Shown piece after piece: positions 12,149 through 47,473 of a stretch of DNA of 64,000 nt. The position numbers were made by a program, and so were the translations under genes. The stretch covers positions 9,052,001 through 9,116,000 of the forward strand of contig NC_068569.1 of NCBI RefSeq assembly GCF_025698545.1, read 5' to 3'. Under the pieces are notes generated by a model. The model saw only the letters and a list, made by a program, of their open reading frames with translations, did not search any database and was not told the origin of the DNA. Each line of letters starts with the position of its first letter. The first letter of the stretch is position 1. Source of the DNA: Gossypium raimondii (Eukaryota; Streptophyta; Magnoliopsida; Malvales; Malvaceae).

Positions 12149-12174
12149 TGCGATGCTTGCAACTTCAAAATAAA

Positions 12175-13030
12175 TTTAGTAAAAAACCATTATTTCGGCC
12201 CTTTGTTCATATTTTTTCCCGGATTTTATTACTTTAAAAAATATACTATTTTTTAATTTTATTATTTTACATTATTTTAGTAAATTATGTTTGAAATGTA
12301 TTAATTTATTGTTTTTAAATAAATTTAAAAAAACCCTTATTTCGTCCCTTTGTTCGTATTTTTTTGCGGATTTTATTACTTTAAAAAATATATTCTACTT
12401 TCTAATTTTATTATTTTACATTATTTTAGTACATTATGTTTGAAATGTATTAATTTAGTGTGTTTTTAAATAAATTTCAAAAATAACCCTTATTTCGACC
12501 ATTTGTTCGTATTTTTTCCTGAATTTTATTACTTTTAAAAAATATACTATTTTCTAATTTTATTATTTTATATTATTTTAGTACATTATGTTTGAAATGT
12601 ATTAATTTAGTGTGTGTTTTAAATAAATTTAAAAAATAACCCTTATTTAGGCCCTTTGTTCGTATTTTTTCCCCAAATTTTATTACTTTCAATAAAAAGA
12701 TATTATTTTCGTATTTTATTATTTTAGATTATTTTAGTACATTATGTTTGAAATGTATTAATTTAGTGTGTGTTTTAAATAAATTTAGTAAAAACCCTTA
12801 TTTCGCCTTGTTCGTATTTTTTACGAAGCCTTATTGTTTCAAAAATATATTATTTTCGTATTTTATTATTTTACGTTATTTTAGTACATTATGTTTGAAA
12901 TGCATTAATTTAGTAAAAACTCTTATTTCGGTCCTTTGTTCGTATTTTTTTCCAGATTTTATTACTTTCAAAAATATTTTATTTTCGTATTTTATTATTT
13001 TACATTCTTTTCATATTTTATATTTTCTTA
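12175..13030. repeat. Tandem array, about six copies of a ~153-bp unit
   Basis: Each unit runs CCCTTATTTCG..CCTTTGTTCGTATTTTTT, GATTTTATTACTTT, TTTTATTATTTTACATTATT, ACATTATGTTTGAAATG and TTTAAATAAATTTA. Copies begin near 12179, 12332, 12485, 12640, 12787 and 12914; the last two are shortened. It lies just upstream of the mobile-domain gene's ATG (12148), still within the MULE. An open frame at 12748-13095 is an artefact of this array. Confidence 0.85.
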
Positions 13031-25307: not shown

Positions 25308-25525
25308 AATATCCATGTATTTCGGGATTGCTTGGCTGCAAAGGAAGTTCGGAAACATGTGGAGTTCTCTAGTTGTGTCTTTTGGTGTAATCACATGGAG
25401 AATATGGAAGAATAAGAATCTCATTATCTTTCAAATGTTACTTGGCCAACCTTTGAAATTGCCAAAGCCTCCCTTAGTTGGGCGCAACAATATGAATCAA
25501 ACCAAAGAACATCTATAAGACCAAT

Positions 25526-27564
25526 TATAACAGCCTGAATTTTCAGTGGCAACGGAAACGGTGACTTGAAGTCACCAATTCCGATGAGTAAGCTCGTAAA
25601 TTTTATTATTTAGCATTTACGAGTTAAATGTGATTTTAGAAAGATTTTGTGAAATAGTGATTTGAGTTTAGAAGGAATTATTAGGTTAATTGATTTTAAA
25701 AACGGGGTATCTAGACCTAGATTTTATAAATCGACATGTAAATATTTTTATAAATATTTACGGAGTGTCATTAAGGTAGTATTAAAGCTTCGTTAGAAAA
25801 TTTTATCGTTTCGATGGTTAATTAATTAAAAAGGACTAAATTGAAAAAGTGCAAAACTTGCTAAAGTGATTAAATAGAATAAATGGTAAATAAGGGAGGA
25901 CTAAAAGGGCAATTAGACACCCAAGGAATGGCTGAGGCGGCATAAGCAGAAAAAAATCTTGGAATTAGGTGATTTAAGGGTGAAATTGTAAATTTTGTGA
26001 AATTAACTTAAATAAATTGAATTCTAAACTTTTCTAGGCAATTCTTCTTCAATTCTCAGTCAAAAACAGCCATTAGAGAGCTTCTTAAGCTGGTTTTTAT
26101 ATTTTTACTTCATATCAAGAGCTCGTAGATCGACAAGAAAAAGAGAAATTAGTCGATTAGTCTCTGAACTATTACCAATTTTATAATTCAACCCAGGTAA
26201 GTTCATATGGTTAAACTTTCATGATTATTTGTTAATTTAGGAATGGTATAATATATTTATTCATATTTTGTTGTTGAAATTAAGATTATTGTAAAAGTAT
26301 GAAAATTGAATTGAATGTTTAAAACGAGTAAAACGCAGGATTAAGTACGATCGTTCCGTGGCAATGAATGAATTGACGGATAAGACCATGGTTGGACCAT
26401 GGCAATGTTTAAATGTAAGACCATAGCTGGGCTATGGCATTTTAATGAAAAGACCATAACTGGGTTATGGCACCTTGAACGTAAGACCATGGTTGGACCA
26501 TGACAGTATAGATACATGTGTAAGACCATAGTTGGGATATGGCATTCTGATGATAAGACCATAATTGGGTTATGGCACTACAAATGTAAGACCATGGCAG
26601 GGCCATGGCAATGCATGTGTAAGACCATAGTTAGACTATGGCACAAAAAGAACGATGTACTCATATCTGTAAGCTGTTCTTCGATTCAGTAAGAAATGGT
26701 AAGAGACTTATGTGATTGAATTGAAAGATTTATAAATTATTATTGATATTGATATGAAGGAAGTGTGTGTTTATTGATTATATTGTATTTGACAGATAAA
26801 AATGTATGATTTATTTACAATTTAATTTATTATATTATATTAAGTTCGGTAAGATCAATGTTTAACCTATTGAACTTTCTAAGATTCATTAAGCTTACTC
26901 GTGTTATTTAATGTTCTTGTAGATTAACGTGTAGTCGGAAGATCAGATCAACACATCAAGCTACACTATCCAGTTTATTCCGGTAGTTTTTGCAATGTAA
27001 ATTTTGGTTTATATGGCATCTATAGGGTTGGTTTGACAATGAAATAGTTTGAATTGTGGTTGTGAATATTAAATGTTTGTATGCATGTAATTAGTAGTAG
27101 AATTTGATAAATCAATGAAATGAGTTAAATAGGCAGGTATAAGTAAATGAAATATTTGTGATTTTATGTCATGTTGAGAACATGTTTTAGCTTGTATTGA
27201 TTGCTTGGTTGGGATATATTGGTGTATGTGAATGTTGAGTGCAGGTTAATGTCAAAATGGGTGAGAAAAGTGGCCTTAAAATGGTCTATTTTCGTCCATA
27301 CGGGCAGAGACACGGGCATGTGTCCCTTGCTTCTAAGAAAATTTTTAAAATTTTGGGAAAAATTCCCTGAGTACCCGGTTTAGTCTCGATTCACTTCTAA
27401 GGTGAATATTGGGCCTCGAAGGTCCATCTAAGGGACAATATGAGTGTTATATGATTTGTTCTTAATGTGTAACAAAGGTTGGGAAATGTCAGTATTTAAT
27501 TTATAAAGTTTGGTAATGCTCCGTAACCCTGTTTCGGTAACGGATAAGGGTTAGGAGTGCTACA
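25526..27564 (+). mobile_element. Solo LTR, 2039 bp, with CCAAT target duplication
   Basis: The element starts TATAACAGCCTGAATTTTCAG (expected TGTAACAG, so its second base appears mutated) and ends GGGTTAGGAGTGCTACA. It is flanked by a perfect 5-bp direct repeat CCAAT (25521-25525 and 27565-27569). No internal retrotransposon domain lies beside it, so it is a solo LTR left by recombination between two LTRs. It splits a LINE relic. A truncated relative sits at 8820-9967. It contains an unusual hairpin array (26381-26644). It is probably from a Ty3/gypsy element, but that is inference. Confidence 0.85.
26381..26644 (+). repeat. Eight-unit array of covarying hairpins inside the solo LTR
   Basis: Eight units of 32-39 bp each contain GACC followed by a six-base stem, a five-base loop, the complementary six bases and usually GC. 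Stem pairs in order are CCATGG/CCATGG, CCATAG/CTATGG, CCATAA/TTATGG, CCATGG/CCATGA, CCATAG/ATATGG, CCATAA/TTATGG, CCATGG/CCATGG and CCATAG/CTATGG. Six of the eight are fully paired while using three different sequences, so changes on one side are matched on the other. Confidence 0.85.
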
Positions 27565-28006
27565 CCAATCTTCCAAATTTGCTCTACCATAAACGCACAG
27601 AAGGAATGTGAGTTCTTCTTTTCTTCGATGGTGCAGTGGAGTGAATCACGGGGAGTGTTGCGACTTGTGGAGTGATATGTGATCAAGCTGATAATTTGGC
27701 CTTTGGATACAATTGGTATCTAGGCAGTTGTACTCCTTTTGAGGCGAAACTCTGGGGTATTTTAGATGGACTCCTCATTTTGTTGAATAAAATATACAAA
27801 CTGGCCACAATTCAAACAAATAATGCAGATGTGGCTAAGGCCTTGACTGATAAAGAGATGGAAGATTCAGGTGTCACTATTCCTAGAAGGGTTCAAAGGA
27901 TCAGACGTTTTGAAGGACAATGGAAGATCAGAGTTGTGTCCAGAGAAACAAACATAATTGCAGATTGTTTGGCAAAGATTTGCCTTGCATGGAAGACAAG
28001 TTTATA

Positions 28007-35995: not shown

Positions 35996-38407
35996 TGTAA
36001 TACCCAATTTTTGACCCGGGCCCAACTAAGCCTAAAGCCCAAACCCATTACAAGCCCAAGTCATTAACCCAAATACCTGACCCACTAGCCTAAAATAAAA
36101 AAAATGAACAGCAGAAACATTTGGCAATAAGCAGCAGATCGGCATCACCCTCGCCCCCACGTTGCAGCAACCGTCTTCACGCATGATCGCATAGCAACTG
36201 CCCACGTTCTCCAACGCCCACAGCGGCAACAAGCCATGAACCACGAATAAAAATAATGGCAGAGAGGACGACAAAGGGGGGGGAGAGTTTTTTTCGATAG
36301 TTTCTTTCTCCGTTGTTTCGGCTATATAAAGCCAAATCAAATCTGTAAAAGGGTTACACAGACATATATTGAAAAATACTGAAATACGAAAGAAAAGAAT
36401 CAGGAAAAAAACAAATTTTTGAAGGTGATTTGTTCTTTCCAAGTTTTTTTTACTGTTTCTTTTTTTTGTCTCATCTTTTTCTTTTGTATTTTACTTCGTT
36501 TTTTTGAGAAAGAAAACGAAAAGTAAAAGAAAGGGAGGAGATTCTTACCAGCAGAGGCGCGCCATCGGTATCGTTTGCTTCATTTGTCCAAATCAAAGTT
36601 AAAAGGGAGGGGGTTTTGGCGTGAGGAGTTGGGAAGAAGATGAAACAATTTTTGAAGCTGCTGCAGAATAGCTTTAAATTTGAGATTGAAATGGGTTTTA
36701 AGCACTTATGGGTTATTTATGCTTTTAATCCTCTCATGTTTTCATTATTTCAAAACCACTGTTTTTGCTATTTTCAAATTTTTCCCTAAAACATTAAATT
36801 TGTTTGATTTTAATCCAGTGCTGCACAGCACTTTGGGAGAAGAGGGATTAATTTCCCTTTTGACCCTTCATGTTGCCGGCATTTTGCAAATTCATCCTCT
36901 ATTTTAATTTGATTTGGTGTTGTTAATTTTGTTTTGATTCTAATTTAGTCCATTGTATTTGCTTTTACAAATTAGATTAAATATTAGTTTGTTAATACTA
37001 TTATTGTTATTAAGTTGCTGTTATCTTTGTTATTATATTATATATTACTATTATTATTATATTACTTATTATTATTATTATTATTATAATAATATATATT
37101 TATGCGCATATGTATCTTATTTTATATATATATATTTTATTTTATTTTATTTTATTAATATATATACATTTTTTATTTTTTATTATTATATTTATGCATA
37201 TATACGCATATGTTTGTTTTATTATAATATATATGTATATATTTTAAATGTTTTTAAATGAATACACATACATATTCTATTATTATTTTATTTTCTTAGT
37301 TTTTACATACATACGTACATACATTATTATTTGATAATATTTATACATTTTTCATATTTTTATAATCCTATATATATATTTCTTTCATAATGTGCATGTT
37401 TATACATTATTCAAATTATTATAAATATTTTTTGCATGTTTTATGTATATATTTTCATTTTTTTATAATTTACTAATATATTATATTTTTACTCTTTTTT
37501 TTTTGTAAATGTATGAATATACTTGATATGTATTTTATTATTGTTTTATTTTCATGACTTTTGTATTCATATATATGTATGCACTAACATTTTATAAAAC
37601 TTATGCATTTATTATTATTATTATTATTTTTATTTCATGGTCATATACATACTTGCAAAATTTACTTTTATACCATTTATATATATATATATATATCATA
37701 TACATGTATAATTTAAATTAAAATATTCGTTTCATGTTTCATTGACATTTTTAACACATTTTTTAACTACATTTTGATTTTGTCAAAATATTAAATTATT
37801 TTTTATGATTCAAAGATTTTCAAAATAAAAACGATATTCAAAGTTAGGGATTTTCGAGGAAAATTGAGCCCTAACGTATTGGGTTCCGATTTTCTTTGTT
37901 AATTCCAAATAACCGAGAATATTCATTATTTAAAATGTATAAACAAAAATCATTTTCGGGAATTCAATATGTTATGTCCTAACGCATTGGGCATGACATA
38001 TTGCTTTCTCGAAATGAAGATTTTCTTTGAAAATTTAATTAAAAAGCGATATTCAAAATTCGGGGATTTTGAGAAATTGTACCCTAACGTATTGGGTCTC
38101 AATTTCTTCGCATGACTTGAATAATTGATTATCCTTTTCAGATTTCAACATTTGAGTTTAACAAAATCTTTTTAATTTTCGACACTAAGACATTAAATAA
38201 TCAATTTGGTACCGATTTTTGGGCGTTACGAGGGTGCTAATCCTTCCTCGTGCGTAACTGACTCCGGAACTCGTTTTCTCAAATTTCTTAGACCAAATTG
38301 TTTTAAAGGTGAGCCGGTCACACCTAAATCACGGATCGGTGGCGACTCCAGTTTTTGTTTTTAAAGTCGACAACAAATTTTTTGTTTTCAAAAAAATGGT
38401 TTCGACA
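35996..38407 (+). repeat. 5' LTR of the Ty3/gypsy element
   Basis: 2412 bp, TG..CA ends. It includes a C-rich start (CCCAACTAAGCCTAAAGCCC), a very AT-rich middle with TA and TTA simple repeats, and three ACGTATTGGG/ACGCATTGGGC-type motifs near 37875-38100. Open frames within it (36032-36442 minus, 36953-37261 plus) are low-complexity artefacts. Confidence 0.92.
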
Positions 38408-43509: not shown

Positions 43510-44720
43510 CGAAGCAGATAAAAAATGGCAGATTTTACCTCCCTGTGGTTACAGTGGAGTACATTGAAGCCCTAATTCTACTTCCCTAGGCAGCAGTGGA
43601 ATAGATTAAAGATTTCAGATCTTGTCTCCCTAAGCGGTAGTGGGGCAGATCAAAGATGGTGAATTTTACCTCCCTGTGGTTACAGTGGAGTACATTGAAG
43701 CCGTAATTCTACTTCCCTAGGCAGCAGTGGAATAGATTAAAGATTTCAGATCTTGTCTCCCTAAGCGGTAGTGGGGCAGATCAAAGATGGTGAATTTTAC
43801 CTCCCTGTGGTTACAAAGTGAGTACATTGAAGCCGTAATTCTACTTCCCTAGGCAGCAGTGGAATAGATTAAAGATTTCAGATCTTGTCTCCCTAAGCGG
43901 TAGTGGGGCAGATCAAAGATGGTGAATTTTACCTCCCTGTGGTTACAGTGGAGTACATTGAAGCCAGTAATTCTATCTCCCTGGTTGGCAGTGGAATAGA
44001 TTGAAGATTTCAGATCTTATCTCCCTAGGAATTAGCAGAGCAGATCGAAGATGGCAGATTTTACCTCCTCGTGGTTACAGTGGAGTACATTGAAGCCGTA
44101 ATTCTATCTCCCTGGTTGGCAGTGGAATAGATTGAAGATTTCAGATCTTATCTCCTAGGAATTAGCGGAGCAGATCGAAGATGGCAGATTTTACCTCCTC
44201 GTGGTTACAGTGGAGTACATTGAAGCCGTAATTCTATCTCCCTGGTTGGCAGTGGAATAGATTGAAGATTTCAGATCTTATCTCCCTAGGAATTAGCGGA
44301 GCAGATCGAAGATGGCAGATTTTACCTCCTCGTGGTTACAGTGGAGTACATTGAAGCCGTAATTCTATCTCCCTGGTTGGCAGTGGAATAGATTGAAAAT
44401 TTCAAATCGTATCTCCCTAGGAATTAGCGGAGCATATCGAAGATGGCAGACTTTACCTCCCTGTGGTTACAGTGGAGTACATTGAAGCCGTAATTCTATC
44501 TCCCTGGTTGGCAGTGGAATAGATTGAAGATTTCAGATCTTATCTCCCTAGGAATTAGTGGAGCAGATCGAAGATGGCAGATTTTACCTCCCTGTGGTTA
44601 CAGTGGAGTACATTGAAGCCGTAATTCTATCTCCCTGGTTGGCAGTGGAATAGATTAAAGATTTCAGATCTTGTCTCCCTAAGCGGTAGTGGGACAGATC
44701 AAAGATGAGAGCAGATCGCA
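43510..44720 (+). repeat. Tandem array, nine copies of a ~131-bp unit, in the retrotransposon 3' region
   Basis: Each unit carries TTTTACCTCCCTGTGGTTAC, GTGGAGTACATTGAAGCC, GTAATTCTA, GCAGTGGAATAGATT and a TTTCAGATCTTRTCTCCC block. The GTACATTGAAGCC landmark recurs near 43558, 43690, 43821, 43952, 44081, 44212, 44345, 44474 and 44606, a spacing of 129-133. Two subfamilies exist: early copies with CTAAGCGGTAGTGGGGCAGATC and later ones with CTAGGAATTAGCGGAGCAGA. More degenerate relatives continue to about 44950. Confidence 0.92.
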
Positions 44721-45058: not shown

Positions 45059-46722
45059 TGTAATACCCAATTTTTGACCCGAGCCCAACTAAGCCTAAAG
45101 CCCAAACCCATTACAAGCCCAAGTCATTAACCCAAATACGACCCACTAGCCTAAAATAAAAAAATGAACAATGAAACATTTGGCAATAAGCGGCAGATCA
45201 AGATCACCCTTGCCCCCACGTTGCGAAACTGTCTTCACGCATGATCGCATAGCAACTTCCCACGTTCTCCAACGCCCACACCGCAACAAGCCATGAACCA
45301 CGAATAAAAATAATGGCGAGAGGACGACAAAGGGGGAGAGGTTTTTTTCGATAGTTTCTTTCTCCGTTGTTTCGCTATATAAAGCCAAATCAAATCTGTA
45401 AAAGGGTTACACAGACATATATTGAAAAATACTGAAATACGAAAGAAAAGAATCAGGAAAAAAACAAATTTTTGAAGGTGATTTGTTCTTTCCATGTTTT
45501 TTTTACTGTTTCTTTTTTTTTGTCTCATCTTTTTCTTTTGTATTTTACTTCGTTTTTTGAGAAAGAAAACGAAAAGTAAAAGAAAGGAGGAGATTCTTAC
45601 CAGCAGAGGCGCCATCGGTATCGTTTGCTTCATTTGTCCAAATCAAAGTTAAAAGGGAGGGGGTTTTGGCGTGAGGAGTTGGGAAGAAGATGAAACAATT
45701 TTTGAAGCTGCTGCAGAATAGCTTTAAATTTGAGATTGAAATGGGTTTTAAGCACTTATGGGTTATTTATGCTTTTAATCCTCTCATGTTTTCATTATTT
45801 CAAAACCACTGTTTTTGCTATTTTCAAATTTTTCCCTAAAACATTAAATTTGTTTGATTTTAATCCAGTGCTGCACAGCACTTTGGGAGAAGAGGATTAA
45901 TTTCCTTTTGACCCTTCATGTTGCCGCATTTTGCAAATTCATCCTCTATTTTAATTTGATTTGGTGTTGTTAATTTTGTTTTGATTCTAATTTAGTCCAT
46001 TGTATTTGCTTTTACAAATTAGATTAAATATTAGTTTGTTAATACTATTATTGTTATTAAGTTGCTGTTATCTTTGTTATTATATTATATATTACTATTA
46101 TTATTATATTACTTATTATTATTATTATTATTATAATAATATATATTTATGCGCATATGTATCTTATTTTATATATATATATTTTATTTTATTTTATTTT
46201 TATTAATATATATACATTTTTTATTTTTTATTATTATATTTATGCATATATACGCATATGTTTGTTTTATTATAATATATATGTATATATTTTAAATGTT
46301 TTTAAATGAATACACATACATATTCTATTATTATTTTATTTTCTTAGTTTTTACATACATACGTACATACATTATTATTTGATAATATTTATACATTTTT
46401 CATATTTTATAATCCTATATATATATTTCTTTCATAATGTGCATGTTTATACATTATTCAAATTATTATAAATATTTTTTTGCATGTTTTTATGTATATA
46501 TTTTCATTTTTTTATAATTTACTAATATATTATATTTTTACTTTTTTTTTTTGTAAATGTATGAATATACTTGATATGTATTTTATTATTGTTTTATTTT
46601 CATGACTTTTGTATTCATATATATGTATGCACTAACATTTTATAAAACTTATGCATTTATTATTATTATTATTATTTTTATTTCATGGTCATATACATAC
46701 TTGCAAAATTTACTTTTATACC

Positions 46723-46766
<44 letters not shown>

Positions 46767-47473
46767 TATACATGTATAATTTAAATTAAAATATTCGTTT
46801 CATGTTGCATTGACATTTTAACACATTTTTAACTACATTTTGATTTTGTCAAAACATTAAATTATTTTTTATGATTCAAAGATTTTCAAAATAAAAACGA
46901 TATTCAAAGTTAGGGATTTTCGAGGAAAATTGAGCCCTAACGTATTGGGTTCCGATTTTCTTTGTTAATTCCAAATAACCGAGAATATTCATTATTTAAA
47001 ATGTATAAACAAAAATCATTTTCGGGAATTCAATATGTTATGTCCTAACGCATTGGGCATGACATATTGCTTTCTCGAAATGAAGATTTTCTTTGAAAAT
47101 TTAATTAAAAAGCGATATTCAAAATTCGGGGATTTTGAGAAATTGTACCCTAACGTATTGGGTCTCAATTTCTTCGCATGACTTGAATAATTGATTATCC
47201 TTTTCAGATTTCAACATTTGAGTTTAACAAAATCTTTTTAATTTTCGACACTAAGACATTAAATAATCAATTTGGTACCGATTTTTGGGCGTTACGAGGG
47301 TGCTAATCCTTCCTCGTGCGTAACTGACTCCCGAACCCGTTTTCTCAAATTTTGTAGACCAAATTGTTTTAAAGGTGAGCCGGTCACACCTAAATCACGG
47401 ATCGGTGGCGACTCCAGTTTTTGTTTTTAAAGTCGACAACAAATTTTTTGTTTTCAAAAAAATGGTTTCGACA
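45059..47473 (+). repeat. 3' LTR of the Ty3/gypsy element
   Basis: 2415 bp, near-identical to the 5' LTR. Differences are mainly 1-3 base indels in the first 600 bases and a longer TA run (46726-46765 against 37677-37698). Followed by the TTTAT target duplication at 47474-47478. Confidence 0.92.

Follow-up and report, generated by a model that had tools for sequence, protein, structure and literature searches.

The window analysed here, 64,000 nucleotides of Gossypium raimondii (NC_068569.1, positions 9,052,001 to 9,116,000 of the forward strand), contains a solitary long terminal repeat (LTR) of a retrotransposon, within which lies an array of eight short self-complementary units (Table 1). 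An initial annotation, made from the letters of the sequence, had described these units as hairpins inside an LTR, and on both counts it is borne out by direct reading. The LTR ends are TA...CA, with the same five bases, CCAAT, on either side, and six of the eight units have perfect six-base-pair arms, with one mismatch each in unit 4 (CCATGG/CCATGA) and unit 5 (CCATAG/ATATGG). The TA start is read as a mutated TG, and the LTR would be of Ty3/gypsy type, judging from relatives described below as family C. In the window's own family (family A), the loci examined (sampled copies among L009-L038) showed no primer site 3' of the LTR ends, and solo LTRs may be the main form in which this family survives. 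The initial annotation overlooked that the array is enclosed by an intron, and this shifts what its function is likely to be.

The units follow the form AAGA-CCATNN-N5-NNATGG-CA (n = 8, at 26382-26643), and the pattern AAGACCAT N2-16 ATGGCA has seven matches in the window against 0.01 expected, unit 4 escaping it. The outermost loop bases pair too in all eight units, as C.G, T.A or T.G. Folded singly, the units (eight unit types, bulged forms included) give stems of 7 bp closed by a 3-nt loop, with energies of -6.6 to -9.3 kcal/mol; this supersedes the 6-bp stem and five-base loop first described. As RNA, the array has a folding z of -5.36 on the plus strand and -5.46 on the minus strand. The stems follow one another in the order GG-AG-AA-GG-AG-AA-GG-AG, a higher-order repeat of about 105 bp, so the three stem types of the window array are not independent and go back to approximately three ancestors. 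Compared with Rfam, positions 25500-27600 gave one sub-threshold match, to SNORD14, on the opposite strand and outside the array.

The surrounding intron, intron 2 of the leader encoded by the LTR, was delimited by divergent and by intronless copies. In six divergent loci (L003, L008, L039, L050, L064 and L066) the similarity preceding the array sets in at 671 or 672 of the LTR, where a GTAAGT-like site begins; this site reads AG/GTAAGTT in most of the family-A, C and D copies shown and is altered in family B. Intron 2 also shows a branch-like region and a T-rich run; 3' of the array, families A, A', C and E have a ACTTACTAAG-like stretch, a T-rich run and YAG, and other loci share the right flank without these three features. 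The 22-nt exon-exon junction predicted beforehand for family-A intron 2 has one exact match (22/22) in the genome, in the copy L149 at C5:17537967. This copy aligns to the window LTR up to position 671 and again from 1396, so that it has lost 672-1397 (726 nt, array included), with the BLAST border ambiguous by AG at both ends; it shows the junction of a first intron as well. Family C has GT/AC stems and the same leader architecture as family A, and its junction is found at four places at up to three mismatches (reversed control 0). The three of these examined, L150, L151 and L152, each lack two introns with GT..AG borders, corresponding in L059 coordinates to 742-1210 and 1298-2096, with the array at 1502-1731 and the BLAST border again ambiguous by AG; L151 groups apart from L150 and L152. 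Such genomic copies, cut at GT..AG junctions, indicate that both introns are removable from the leader, and that the array sits inside a spliced leader intron and would be absent from the spliced RNA.

Table 1. Features of the solo LTR in the window (positions are those of the window)
Feature	Position	Strand	Remarks
5' target-site duplication CCAAT	25521..25525	.	read directly; same 5 bases 3' of the LTR
Solo LTR (TATAACAGCC...GTGCTACA), 2,039 bp	25526..27564	+	flanked by 5-bp target duplications
Leader exon 1, 3' part, ends TTTTTACTTCAT	25933..26113	+	end set by intron-containing copies; 25933 is only the approximate point where intronless copy L149 starts matching the window LTR
Exon 1/exon 2 junction, intron 1 exactly absent	26113..26114	+	relatives carry 469-481 nt there
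Leader exon 2, 83 nt, ATCAAGAG...CAACCCAG	26114..26196	+	family-C counterpart has 87 nt
Intron 2, 726 nt, donor AG/GTAAGTT, acceptor TTCTTGTAG; encloses the array	26197..26922	+	junction copy L149
Hairpin-unit array, eight units	26381..26644	+	spacing 35, 33, 33, 39, 33, 33, 33
Unit 1 CCATGGT-TGG-ACCATGG	26386..26402	+	
Unit 2 CCATAGC-TGG-GCTATGG	26421..26437	+	
Unit 3 CCATAAC-TGG-GTTATGG	26454..26470	+	
Unit 4 CCATGGT-TGG-ACCATGA	26487..26503	+	C.A at pair 1
Unit 5 CCATAGT-TGG-GATATGG	26526..26542	+	mismatch at pair 6, T.G at pair 7
Unit 6 CCATAAT-TGG-GTTATGG	26559..26575	+	T.G at pair 7
Unit 7 CCATGGC-AGG-GCCATGG	26592..26608	+	
Unit 8 CCATAGT-TAG-ACTATGG	26625..26641	+	
Branch-point-like ACTTTCTAAGATTCATTAAGCTTACT	26874..26899	+	ACTTACTAAGCTT in several relatives
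Exon 3 side of the LTR, ATTAACGTGTAGTC...	26923..27564	+	27564 is the LTR end
3' target-site duplication CCAAT	27565..27569	.	

The first intron of family A measures 469-481 nt (CAT/GTGAGT...TTCTAG/ATCAAGAG), and no hairpin unit was found inside it. Among 13 sampled copies with both ends readable, nine carry it and four lack it exactly, with a gap of 0 (L019, which is the window copy, L026, L028 and L036). Allowing up to three mismatches throughout, the intron-1 junction has 51 matches in the genome; 35 of these have CAT/ATCAA intact, and 21 of the 35 also have the family-A exon-2 start. The 35 differ in how exon 1 ends (ACTTCAT 11, GCTTCAT 11, GCATCAT 6, GCTACAT 2 and five others once each). 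The intron-1 acceptor is kept at 338 places. For intron 2 of family A, the junction occurs once, the acceptor is kept at 188 places and the donor at 735; in family C, intron 2 is lost at four places and kept at 741. Fisher tests of intron-1 loss against the 1/188 for intron 2 give 1.3e-8, 5.7e-6 and 0.002 when 51, 35 or 21 places are counted, values which serve as guides and not as probabilities, the copies being related. Absence of intron 1 coincides with an intron-2 donor 84-87 nt downstream in 13 of the 51 (81 copies typed among 100 listed donors of 735) and with an intron-2 acceptor in nine of the 51 (among 100 listed acceptors of 188). A tree of family-A copies had too low a resolution for counting intron-1 losses. 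As read from these genomic copies, leader splicing is no barrier to retrotransposition as such, and it is very rare for a new copy to come from RNA lacking the intron that bears the array.

Our preferred explanation, held with a confidence that falls a little short of an even balance, is that an intronic array of self-complementary RNA units favours RNA with intron 2 as the replication template. The array is a series of tandem units, each able to form a 7-bp stem and a TGG-type triloop, in the second intron of a 5' leader encoded by an LTR of Ty3/gypsy type. Genomic copies show that this leader is spliced, both introns being removable, and the RNA giving rise to new copies nearly always retains intron 2, with intron 1 sometimes gone. 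Folded as hairpins or paired with one another, in one RNA molecule or across two, the units might bind several copies of one factor or join two RNAs; candidate factors are the element's own Gag and host proteins for export or retention. The bound array would then mark intron-2-containing RNA for export or packaging as replication template, and the fully spliced RNA would serve mainly for translation. It would be the array, rather than another part of intron 2, that causes the unequal loss, acting as RNA through one of these factors. A broader claim, which we consider possible but doubtful, is that a plant retrotransposon lineage separates its unspliced genome RNA from its spliced mRNA by means of a multivalent array of near-identical units in an LTR intron, whether by packaging, by export or by forming RNA dimers. 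Duplication and compensated change would renew the stems and alter the number of units, leaving the mark itself in place.

The unequal loss might also arise if folded units slowed the removal of intron 2, making unspliced RNA merely commoner, with no packaging or export factor involved. Such a brake would suit the placing of the array between donor and acceptor, and the intron-2 donor looks the stronger of the two by the familiar consensus (AG/GTAAGTT against AT/GTGAGT), yet intron 2 is the one kept more often. The array does not directly cover the splice signals, however, since it begins 184 nt past the donor and stops 278 nt short of the acceptor, and precise splicing does occur. We regard this account as improbable.

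A role for pairing is better judged across the genome, where the units are abundant: 4,844 matches at up to three mismatches in the 750.8-Mb assembly, and 7,151 exact matches of TAAGACCAT N9 ATGGCA against 0 for the reversed control. Our collection comprises 495 units from 115 loci (95 with at least two units; a few of the single-unit loci are doubtful), deduplicated by sequence and sought through the outer conserved bases only, so that pairs 5-7 are unselected; 465 of the 495 carry at most two mismatches to those bases. Arrays range from 1 to 9 units, and the unit core is common to subfamilies that differ in their spacers. The outer bases CCAT...ATGG are nearly fixed, with TAAGA conserved before the unit, CA after it and a TGG-type triloop. 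The inner pairs vary: pairs 5 and 6 together are AG/CT in 119 of the 495 units, AA/TT in 98, GG/CC in 96, GT/AC in 90 and AT/AT in 16, and pair 7 is C.G in 244, T.A in 139, T.G in 59 and C.A in 6 of 465 units. Seven fully paired 7-bp stems occur in at least three loci, each one compensated pair away from another. There are 203 distinct stem-loops, of which 26 recur in at least three loci; 15 of these are fully Watson-Crick, five contain G.U only and six are broken (four by C.A at pair 1, one by C.A at pair 2 and one from the bulged form). Among the stem-loops confined to one locus, 111 of 158 are broken.

Pairing was scored on 105 of the 260 distinct units: paired cells make up 93.5%, as against 83.3% once the 3' letters are shuffled, and covariation scores 0.407, compared with 0.197 after shuffling and 0.06-0.11 in slid controls. 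On a tree of the 260 units, stem pairs 5, 6 and 7 rank as the top three of 231 column pairs, and under a looser null, in which substitutions are reshuffled among columns, their family-wise values are 0.005, 0.01 and 0.675 respectively. A bulged family of units, TAAGAC N5 CTGGG N4 TGGCA, has 2,164 matches (control 0); 60 of its first 100 listed places show Watson-Crick pairing throughout pairs 3-6, and shuffling the arms, without regard to the relatedness of copies, gives 18.3 on average and 31 at most. Its common types (ATGT/ACAT 23, ACGT/ACGT 20 and CTGT/ACAG 12 of the 100) add compensation at pairs 3 and 4. No compensated alternative at pairs 1 and 2 was found, either in the 465 units, which were chosen on those bases, or in 100 listed places from another search, one leaving these pairs free. 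From these patterns, the outer pairs, loop and flanks appear to be kept by sequence and the inner pairs by complementarity. Since stem changes on both sides stay paired at five of the seven pairs, a pairing constraint is a better account than neutral repeats, and genome-wide the pairing appears to go beyond shared ancestry, within the limits given below. The initial annotation had argued for such a constraint from the matched arms of the window array, which its three stems and 105-bp repeat cannot carry; it is the compensation across the genome that sustains the argument. Its proviso that the stem pairs might come from conversion of units from only three ancestors anticipated the state of the window array, whose stem types count as about three.

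Variants of the unit occur beside other repeats. A single unit with the loop TAT (CCATAGT-TAT-ACTATGG) is found in L039, L049, L053 and L066, and a GATAAGTGATAGCTTCGGCTACACTTATCTGATC-type tandem repeat adjoins it in L039, L049 and L066. Four loci (L006, L074, L075 and L099) represent a further family, with TAAGACCATAGCTCGGCTATGGCA-like units and longer spacers bearing other hairpin-like motifs (GTC...GGACA).

Evidence of several kinds weighs against a template RNA marked by the array, and bears on the compensation, on the level at which the units act and on the counting of copies. Under a stricter tree null, in which column counts are kept and branches redrawn, the family-wise values for pairs 5, 6 and 7 are 0.08, 0.195 and 0.875 and no pair passes, so that significant covariation, the test named by the initial annotation, is reached by pairs 5 and 6 under the looser null only. 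Two of five measures of compensation show no excess: pairs changed on both sides number 3 against 3.7 shuffled, and further pair types 11 against 11.7. The failure to beat the stricter null would suit a passenger array, where another part of intron 2 or its length is what matters and the stems look compensated through a few duplicated ancestors and hairpin-templated repair of the arms, that is, strand switching within the stem during reverse transcription or replication, by which one arm is repaired from the other. The higher-order repeat of the window and the range of array sizes agree with this. So does the decay of ten arrays of one structure, at 4.8% in stems, 4.6% in loops, 3.2% in flanks and 6.5% in spacers, where changes are scattered as in dead copies; compensatory change inside one subfamily, sought in these ten, was rejected accordingly. 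Against it stand the seven stem types and the three common types in the bulged family, the broken pair 1 (C.A) that persists unrepaired in many loci, and the unit core, which is conserved between subfamilies despite their differing spacers. A passenger array is the least probable of the explanations considered here.

The predicted fold gives further grounds for doubt about separate hairpins. On the plus strand, minimum-energy folding of either the array or the whole intron 2 leaves only two of the eight units as hairpins of their own, the others pairing with different units, and the number of own hairpins rises to four of eight once the pair span is limited to 60 nt; the minus strand folds better, with six of eight own hairpins in three of four runs, including both runs of the array alone. 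A plus-strand row of eight separate hairpins is therefore not what the energy model predicts for the window array, and this result lowered our confidence in the array-marked template from an even balance to slightly below it, and that in the broader multivalent-array claim by a similarly small step; two of the alternatives were raised slightly. Self-complementary units can in principle pair internally, with one another or between two RNA molecules, and sequence alone does not decide among these. Nor does the wobble test favour RNA over DNA: at pairs 2-6 there are 40 G.U against 32 A.C cells. The excess of T.G over C.A at pair 7 (59 against 6) affects a base within a CTG site and can be explained by mutation bias, given that the mirror change in the loop is equally common (53), and pair 1 shows the opposite trend (C.A 74 against 12). 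Wobble asymmetry was discarded as proof of RNA, as it fails to discriminate, and the units may act as RNA or as DNA. We note separately that the last stem base changes from G to A (ATGG to ATGA) in 80 of 486 classified units, against 12 at the neighbouring base, in no nameable methylation context.

The units could instead be palindromes read in duplex DNA, sites for host transcription factors forming an enhancer array in the LTR, with the surrounding intron incidental or itself an enhancing leader intron. The near-fixed outer CCAT...ATGG, the similar numbers of G.U and A.C, which would be expected without selection on RNA, and a plus-strand fold that does not favour separate hairpins all accord with such sites, and palindromic LTR arrays with cis-regulatory roles have been described (PMC2829016, PMC10760457, from the available excerpts). 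Inner pairs 3-7, however, switch identity and stay complementary, in several combinations per array, where a site read in duplex need not keep its inner arms complementary. Spacings between neighbouring units run from 30 to 57 and beyond without a common period, which speaks against a single helical phasing and led us to reject a periodic footprint. Such sites alone would not explain the keeping of intron 2 and the loss of intron 1 either, and we place this explanation on the unlikely side. Extrusion of a cruciform from duplex DNA is considered unlikely with 7-bp stems.

The remaining doubts about the array-marked template concern the copies themselves. Losses and retentions were counted as places, not as events; 16 of the 51 intron-1 junction matches lack an intact CAT/ATCAA (reversed control 1), and the reversed control of the family-A intron-2 junction gave three matches at up to three mismatches. 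Fully spliced copies exist, so the array is not absolutely needed, and one element appears to have an intronless LTR at both ends. L150 and L152 share a strand and are separated by 6.3 kb; 3' of L152 is a primer-site-like sequence with two mismatches to TGGTATCAGAGC, and before L150 are a Ty3-like integrase piece (7q5b, E 4.4e-10; matching Ty3-G Gag-Pol) and a Tf2-1 SH3 piece, from which we take them to be the LTR pair of a single element. Among intron-containing family-C LTRs, 19 pairs on the same strand, at distances of 6.9-7.6 kb (median 7,503), were picked by eye from neighbouring places among 100 listed of 741, and the median less 1,268 nt for two introns is 6.24 kb. A compact family (L050 and L008) carries the array outside the LTR, downstream of the primer site TGGTATCAGAGC in the internal leader; in compact family B the donor-like site varies and an acceptor was not found. 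L050 has an LTR of about 0.63 kb and about 2 kb of internal sequence, two stretches of about 305 bp, 96.8% alike and 2.7 kb apart, being read as its LTR ends. A leader position after the primer site nevertheless fits an RNA role.

Elsewhere in the window, a 2.4-kb direct repeat with 97.3% identity (35996-38407 and 45059-47473) probably represents the LTRs of another young retrotransposon, and a 131-bp tandem array lies between its copies at 43513-44707. About 0.9 kb at 15263-16149 matches its own reverse complement at 85% identity, and a 147-bp tandem repeat occupies 12168-13025 in about five copies, with 88% matches over 12168-12914.

How plant LTR retrotransposons sort genome RNA from mRNA is poorly known, as far as the available excerpts relate (PMC3735527, PMC12786077), and this genome offers hundreds of natural trials, in copies that keep or lose either intron. 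If the array does keep intron 2 in the template, it would constitute a directly testable packaging or export element in the Ty3 superfamily. Furthermore, annotation and dating can go astray where one family mixes intron-bearing and intronless LTRs. Judged by titles and the beginnings of abstracts in a partial literature collection, no publication dealing with hairpin arrays in cotton LTRs, or with introns in them, was found, and a phrase search for introns inside LTRs listed a single paper, on lentiviral vectors. According to the excerpts, plant LTR elements are generally without introns, Ogre and EVADE being among the exceptions (PMC12786077), and in a survey of maize, Ty3/RLG elements displayed no obvious structure peak (PMC10760457).

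Four known systems invite comparison, the LTR palindromes of Sireviruses and the packaging signals of retroviruses being the nearest precedents. In retroviruses, packaging signals lie in the leader intron, and export elements exist for unspliced RNA. These signals resemble the cotton array as RNA structures of the 5' leader downstream of the splice donor, and hence found only in unspliced RNA; the precise intron-2 junctions of DNA copies place the array likewise, in unspliced and not in spliced RNA. As to conserved RNA structure, pairs 3-7 are compensated, but with the stricter null unbeaten and a plus-strand fold that pairs unit with unit. The cotton array differs in having about eight near-identical tandem units inside an LTR, and it is known here from DNA sequence. 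LTR enhancers of the Tnt1/Tto1 type also consist of tandem short units with dyad symmetry, but are thought to be protein-binding sites in duplex DNA upstream of the transcription start, and we know of no compensated stems among them. The LTRs of Sireviruses (Ty1/copia) contain clusters of palindromic repeated motifs linked to cis-regulation (PMC2829016), and LTR palindromes in maize are hotspots of small RNAs (PMC5311732, PMC10760457); the statement of the initial annotation that such arrays have no described function needs this qualifier, as far as the available excerpts go. There too, short palindromic units cluster in plant LTRs and vary in sequence among elements with their symmetry kept. 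Most Sirevirus motifs, however, are built on a CGG-CCG core and are found close to CpG islands, on the upstream side of the TATA box (PMC2829016), whereas the cotton units have a CCA...TGG core, sit in a spliced leader intron and belong to relatives of Ty3/gypsy type, the integrase of the one family-C element tested being like Ty3-G Gag-Pol and not Ty1/copia. A further parallel is BARE of barley, a plant LTR element with spliced and unspliced RNAs in separate pools for translation and replication, of which the unspliced one is replicated (PMC3735527). In the excerpted account, the BARE intron sits where the gag domain ends and no DNA copies of the spliced RNA could be amplified from genomic DNA (PMC3735527), whereas the cotton introns lie in the LTR leader and spliced copies are present in the genome.

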